In this document: positions 22,780 to 23,618 of the stretch, in pieces
How positions within the stretch are numbered: the first letter of the stretch is position 1
Layout: every line of letters begins with the position of its first letter
Assembly: GCF_026248685.1 (NCBI RefSeq)
Contig: NZ_CP111036.1
Coordinates: forward strand, 2,294,001 to 2,358,000
Source: Haladaptatus caseinilyticus
GTDB taxonomy: Archaea; Halobacteriota; Halobacteria; Halobacteriales; Haladaptataceae
Reading direction: 5' to 3'
DNA length: 64,000 nt
Notes under the pieces: generated by a model
The model's input: only the letters and a program-made list of their open reading frames with translations
The model's database searches: none
Told to the model about the DNA's origin: nothing
Program-made: the position numbers and the translations under genes

Positions 22780-23142
22780 TCACCGAAGTTCCTCGACCTT
22801 CGAGGCGATGTCGTCCACGTCGTCGCTGGCTTCGCCAGCGTCCACGATGGCGGCGGCGGCGCTGCCGACTTCGAGGCCAGCCGCGTGACCGACATCGTCC
22901 TGCGTCTCGACGAAGATGAAGGGGATTCCCTTCTCGTCGGCGAGTTCTGGCAGGTGCATGACGATTTCTTCCGGCTGGACGTCTTCGGCGACGTAGATGA
23001 GGTCGGCGTTACCGCGCTCGACAGCCTTGGTCGTCTCGTTCGTTCCTTTCTTTACGGTTCCGGTGTCCCGTGCGACCTCGAGCGTATCGAGTGCTCGGTC
23101 TTGGAGGTCGGCTGGGACGTCGTAGTTGACGTATACTGGCAT
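22780..23142 (-). CDS. rpl7ae: 50S ribosomal protein L7Ae (K-turn binding)
   Basis: A 120-residue RNA-binding protein. In archaea L7Ae is a ribosomal protein and also the core K-turn binder of box C/D and H/ACA RNPs and RNase P. The kink-turn contact region [12 protein letters not shown] (about 34-45) and the loop with [10 protein letters not shown] are intact. It is the first gene of the operon with S28e, L24e and Ndk. Its leader carries a C/D-box-like element, which may allow feedback by L7Ae itself. Confidence 0.97.
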
Positions 23143-23262
23143 GGTTGTTCACCTTTCCTACGCGCTGGCTCAGGCTCCCCTGCCGGATGAATCCTGTGCG
23201 GCTAGGAGCATCATCAACCCCGCGTAGGTTGTACCCTTGAGTTGATGATGCCCCCATAAAAA
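23143..23262 (-). promoter_or_regulatory. L7Ae leader: TATA box, inverted repeat and K-turn-like element
   Basis: Reading the minus strand: a TATA-like TTTTTAT at 23262-23256 predicts a start near 23232. A perfect 11-bp inverted repeat (23241-23251 with 23208-23218) surrounds that point. Downstream, TGATGA (23216-23211) resembles box C and CTGA (23173-23170) resembles box D; the stem GCTCC (23209-23205) pairs with GGAGC (23178-23174) between them, so the two boxes can form a kink-turn. AGGTGA lies just before the ATG. K-turn autoregulation by archaeal L7Ae is known in other species; here it is inferred. Confidence 0.5.
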
Positions 23263-23618
23263 CGCTTTCAAATGAATGACGGAGTGACACGCTTGCACAT
23301 GCGGTCGTGGCGGCGATTTCGGAGGATTATTACTCCGCGGCGAAACCGTTCGACCGCTCGACACGGAATCGACCGTAAAAAAGCGCGACCTGATACGCAC
23401 CACCGGAGAATGCGTGGTCTCCGAGTCGGCCTTCTTCCATGAGTCATACTCGTTCGACTCGGTCGTCGGAACGAAAGACTGGGCCAGCCATACCCAGAAC
23501 GATGTCACTACTGACAAGGACTTCAATTCATGTGCTGAAACACAAAATACGGTACGAAACCTCTCAGACGAATCCGAATGAGGGTTTTGAGGATTCGGTA
23601 CGTATTCGTACTGGAATC
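23263..23618. other. Intergenic region between divergent rpl7ae and cox III
   Basis: About 350 nt without a convincing gene. Open frames here are Arg/Ser-rich and lack acidic bias. It should contain the promoter of the oxidase subunit III gene, but I see no clear TATA box. Nothing repetitive was noticed. Confidence 0.5.

Follow-up and report, generated by a model that had tools for sequence, protein, structure and literature searches.

A conserved kink-turn hairpin in the haloarchaeal rpl7ae leader, probably a variant of the known L7Ae autoregulatory element

The 64,000-nucleotide (nt) stretch of DNA analyzed here, referred to as the window, belongs to Haladaptatus; its closest named relatives are Haladaptatus species, with an L7Ae identity of 98%. 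Our subject is the leader of its rpl7ae gene, which encodes the ribosomal protein L7Ae (eL8). The open reading frame (ORF) matches Pfam PF01248 (8.9e-24), and its product gives a full-length match to the 50S L7Ae chain 1s72_F. Genes for S28e, L24e and NDK lie downstream, and cox3 is divergent. Comparison of haloarchaeal sequences shows that the RNA of this leader is both structured and conserved: it is a hairpin interrupted by a kink-turn (k-turn) between a canonical (C) and a noncanonical (NC) helix. Its parts are as follows.

22780 to 23142, minus strand: rpl7ae (eL8/L7Ae), the presumed binder, carrying an NETTK stretch
23143 to 23232, minus strand: predicted 5′ leader of the rpl7ae mRNA, about 90 nt, structured (match to covariance model R1)
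23221 to 23228, minus strand: P1 helix, 5′ strand, CCTACGCG, pairing with 23164-23157
23217 to 23220, minus strand: C-helix of the k-turn, b strand, GGGT, pairing with 23169-23166
23213 to 23216, minus strand: k-turn bulge UGAU, with L3 = U23213
23211 to 23212, minus strand: G1b and A2b of the tandem sheared pairs
23199 to 23209, minus strand: NC helix, b strand, GCTCCTAGCCG, pairing with 23185-23174
23192 to 23195, minus strand: unpaired, conserved AGGA in the apical loop
23174 to 23185, minus strand: NC helix, n strand, CGGCAGGGGAGC, with a bulged G23177, pairing with 23209-23199
23170 to 23171, minus strand: G2n and A1n of the tandem sheared pairs (the GA of CTGA)
23157 to 23164, minus strand: P1 helix, 3′ strand, CGCGTAGG, adjoining the ribosome-binding site and pairing with 23228-23221
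23149 to 23154, minus strand: Shine-Dalgarno (SD)-like AGGTGA, 2 nt 3′ of P1, recognized from sequence (AGGTGA or a variant occurs in most leaders)

Leaders were gathered from two sources with some species in common, 28 genomes belonging to the same family and 80 named contigs; 42 diverse leaders were used for pair statistics, 78 distinct leaders for the k-turn core, and 88 for the promoter. Throughout Halobacteriales, everything between 23234 and the start codon is kept as a single unit. With no structure supplied, RNAalifold recovered P1, the C-helix and the NC helix from the 42 diverse leaders. In the same set, 93.3% of the cells of the structure given above are paired, and 15 of its pairs have changed on both sides; the double-change cells number 72, compared to 19.1 in shuffles, and none of 500 shuffles reached any of these measures. 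When the structure was slid along the alignment, only 36 to 46% of cells remained paired. The changes on both sides affect several pairs of P1 and 8 of the 11 pairs of the NC helix. In the C-helix, G-C, C-G and A-U exchange among relatives, and in the Haladaptatus window a G stands opposite an A at 23220/23166. While the helices vary, the nucleotides that make the k-turn do not: L3 = U, G1b, A2b, G2n and A1n are without variation in the 78 distinct leaders.

The covariance model R1, built from the collected leaders, matches 23234-23143 at 91 bits, its sole match in the Haladaptatus genome at E<=1. Of 117 Halobacteriales genomes, 103 have a match, always as a single copy (95 of 97 when only the good genomes are counted), and every one of the 103 matches abuts L7Ae, ending between -3 and 21 nt from its start. 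A search of the rest of the phylum gave no credible copy outside Halobacteriales; the sole non-halobacterial match (in G177, E 0.001) falls within an open coding frame whose translation resembles heterodisulfide reductase and was set aside. No Rfam family matches the rpl7ae leader. Mimicry of rRNA was also considered: at E<=1, R1 has no second match anywhere in the genome, including 23S, so that none is detectable by this search, which made no detailed comparison with the L7Ae site of 23S. Because the helices covary and one copy per genome stands at L7Ae, the k-turn leader is overwhelmingly beyond chance.

The form of the element differs between lineages. In two families without the large form, f10 and f12, the L7Ae leader has instead a minimal k-turn hairpin sitting right at the ribosome-binding site, with the pattern GU-RAU-GA-[C/A]GCGC-loop-GCGC[G/U]-GA-AC-GAGGT and an exchange between C-G and A-U. 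The minimal hairpin measures about 40 nt in five leaders (L142, L143, L147, L149 and L150) from two Halobacteriales families whose genomes span about 1.7 to 2.3 Mb. L146 has a textbook k-turn (GGGT/GCCC, a 3-nt bulge, GA/GA and a 10-bp NC helix); its P1 is of the same kind as in the large form, but its NC helix is different. The 3-nt bulge is shared by L069, L077, L083 and L104. Many families have an apical insert of at most about 70 nt; in L044, L045, L080, L081, L083 and others, it takes the form of inserted hairpins specific to the lineage.

The original prediction had placed a box C/D-like k-turn in this leader, built from TGATGA (23216-23211) and CTGA (23173-23170) and joined by a stem of GCTCC (23209-23205) and GGAGC (23178-23174). 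All four motifs are there, and the k-turn is borne out by conservation across haloarchaea, covarying helices and an invariant core; loss of the boxes in close relatives, which would have spoken against it, is the reverse of what we see. The motifs were placed correctly, but they divide differently: TGAT at 23216-23213 is the bulge, and the sheared G-A pairs join 23212 with 23170 and 23211 with 23171. Position 3b/3n is then U23210/U23172, -1b:-1n is U23217 with G23169, and C23173 and G23177 are extra nucleotides on the n strand. For the core, the label box C/D-like is acceptable. In box D, however, C and U vary (CTGA, GCGA and TCGA are all found, with only GA invariant across haloarchaea), so that this is a k-turn and no C/D guide-RNA site. 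A box C/D guide small RNA was accordingly rejected, with box D reduced to GA, no C′/D′ boxes seen and no Rfam match.

A related possibility is that the leader is a k-turn RNA for processing or a stable small RNA, for instance through cleavage directed by L7Ae or RNase P or as a C/D-like ribonucleoprotein, with regulation secondary. Such processing has been proposed for Thermococcus k-turn leaders, and the Haloferax mediterranei small RNAs HM9_V and HM10_V, listed beside rpl7ae, map to the intergenic region adjoining it (PMC5852579); these may be fragments of the rpl7ae leader or of its antisense. However, besides the degenerate box D and the missing C′/D′ boxes, the element invariably adjoins the L7Ae start codon, with its P1 ending at the ribosome-binding site. 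We regard this explanation as very unlikely.

Upstream of the leader lie the promoter and a short repeat arm.

23255 to 23269, minus strand: transcription factor B recognition element (BRE)/TATA element of the rpl7ae operon, GAAAGCG TTTTTATG, conserved in the 88 leaders compared
23241 to 23251, minus strand: upstream repeat arm, part of the promoter spacer and outside the element, intact in L001 to L004 only

The TATA box occupies 23262-23256, and, with two exceptions among the 88 leaders, its start falls 42 to 45 nt ahead of the b strand of the k-turn; in these two, the simple pattern chose a nearer match. From haloarchaeal promoter spacing, the rpl7ae transcript should start at about 23232. 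The predicted start thus lies upstream of 23216, on the side compatible with a transcribed k-turn, where the original prediction had named a start downstream of that position as a refutation. We found no published rpl7ae start-site data for Haloferax in the main texts.

This start bears on a second proposal of the original prediction, an 11-bp inverted repeat overlapping box C and acting as a switch. The arms, 23218-23208 (GTTGATGATGC) and 23251-23241 (GCATCATCAAC), are indeed perfect reverse complements over 11 nt. In the two-state model they would pair in the RNA, hide the k-turn and compete with the L7Ae-bound fold, and transcription from 23252 would let the repeat dominate the predicted fold (-44.9 kcal/mol). 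However, counted from the predicted start, the upstream arm would cover about -9 to -19, within the TATA-to-start spacer, and it is not widely conserved: the match is 11/11 only in the four closest species, 7 to 8/11 in the remaining five genomes of Haladaptatus, and 6 to 8/11, about background, in the relatives checked outside the genus. Nor is the repeat rare, as the window holds 16 comparable 11-mer pairs within 60 nt, compared to 0 to 7 in shuffles; it is not beyond chance. Since the upstream arm is unconserved and sits in the promoter spacer, and since such repeats are common in the window, the switch is unsupported. We rejected it and consider it extremely improbable.

It seems very probable, from the conservation and the exclusive linkage to L7Ae, that the rpl7ae leader works in cis as a translational feedback element bound by L7Ae. 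We imagine that the transcript, starting near 23232, would fold into a hairpin of P1, C-helix, k-turn and NC helix. With no sites left on rRNA and the other RNAs that bind L7Ae, the free protein would bind the leader k-turn, kinking and locking the hairpin, and the locked hairpin would obstruct ribosome loading at AGGTGA and the AUG just 3′ of P1. Synthesis of L7Ae would then fall, possibly together with that of S28e, L24e and NDK. The geometry is consistent with such a role: the k-turn element is near the ribosome-binding site, P1 stops 2 nt short of AGGTGA, and the long basal helix in haloarchaea links the 5′ end of the transcript with the ribosome-binding site. The protein side is consistent as well. 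In the Archaeoglobus fulgidus crystal structure, L7Ae contacts the bases of G1b and G2n (PMC6298567), and the NETTK of the window's L7Ae presumably corresponds to the k-turn recognition helix (N33/E34/K37 contacts, PMC6298567). A C:G at -1 and a G at 3n favor ion-driven folding of k-turns (PMC6298567); by these rules, the haloarchaeal k-turns fall in a class that should require protein to kink, because none of the 78 distinct leaders has G at 3n and 76 of them have U-G at -1b:-1n.

Several observations weigh against this interpretation. While the k-turn sequence class fits protein-dependent folding, P1 is predicted to need no protein for its stability (on average, about 8 pairs are expected), so the added effect of L7Ae is uncertain. 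Most species have a 4-nt bulge plus one extra n-strand nucleotide, slightly off the standard k-turn, and two leaders, L144 and L145, fit no form clearly. In addition, one Haloferax volcanii test gene could do without its SD motif (PMC3986360), making simple SD masking less certain as the mechanism.

That leaves the apical loop. AGGA or AGGGA occurs there in 76 of the 78 distinct leaders, compared to 6% in shuffles, and has no obvious pairing partner. Pairing of UCCU with AGGA does not account for the motif, as AGGGA stays where UCCU is gone (L049, L050, L052 and L076). The apical AGGA is possibly a second contact. One can envision that haloarchaea rebuilt a simple protein-induced k-turn as a prefolded hairpin with AGGA as a second recognition element, so that L7Ae feedback would act through two contacts on a structure already formed, instead of folding an open RNA; we put this forward tentatively, as rather unlikely. 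A conserved motif unrelated to the k-turn, together with the predicted stability of P1, would also suit a hairpin read mainly by something other than L7Ae (the ribosome, another protein, salt or temperature), in which the k-turn is only a structural bend. The exclusive linkage to L7Ae, the invariant nucleotides that make the k-turn and the retention of a minimal k-turn in families without the remaining structure all argue otherwise, and leave such a reader very little chance.

Feedback by L7Ae through leader k-turns is established in other archaea, as the original prediction had stated. In Sulfolobus acidocaldarius, L7Ae acts on a k-turn in its own leader, as found by gel shift and reporter assays (Daume 2017, PMC5539422), and the A. 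fulgidus l7ae leader k-turn has been studied by crystallography and in-line probing (Huang, Ashraf and Lilley 2019, PMC6298567). The S. acidocaldarius l7ae 5′ untranslated region resembles the haloarchaeal one in its gene, in the position of the k-turn beside the ribosome-binding site, in a GAU-type bulge and in the tandem G-A pairs. It is, however, short and simple, its k-turn having only one C-helix pair and a stem of 4 bp, whereas the haloarchaeal leader is a hairpin of 90 to 160 nt with covarying P1, C- and NC-helices and often an apical insert. The A. fulgidus and haloarchaeal leaders share the same k-turn core, whose sequence class is expected to stay unkinked in the absence of protein; the A. 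fulgidus RNA has no structure unless L7Ae is present, while folding predictions have the haloarchaeal hairpin largely preformed. Our best call is that the rpl7ae leader is a haloarchaeal variant of the known autoregulatory element, and L7Ae autoregulation through it is very likely in haloarchaea. Feedback of this kind was already known in archaea; what is new is the full haloarchaeal version, with a complete consensus backed by covariation. Such a feedback k-turn would have been retained through the whole order on differing scaffolds, a minimal or a large hairpin.

A haloarchaeal leader has been assayed before. About 50 bp of the Haloferax volcanii l7ae upstream region, orthologous to the Haladaptatus leader, was tested in E. 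coli, and Kt-n and Kt-b strands were described, one Kt-b lying further upstream (Daume 2017, PMC5539422). Because other Haloferax species (L071, L087, L091 and L093) place the b strand 99 to 101 nt before the ATG, the construct probably lacked the b strand and the 5′ strand of P1, which fits the remark on Kt-b. With the full element delineated, L7Ae feedback control is now directly testable in a genetically tractable haloarchaeon.

The nop5-fibrillarin locus of the same Haladaptatus genome (L155) was also inspected, and no k-turn leader was seen there. A TATA-like TTTAAA lies about 28 nt before the nop5 ATG, which suggests that the nop5 mRNA is leaderless and without a k-turn, unlike in Sulfolobus and Thermococcus.
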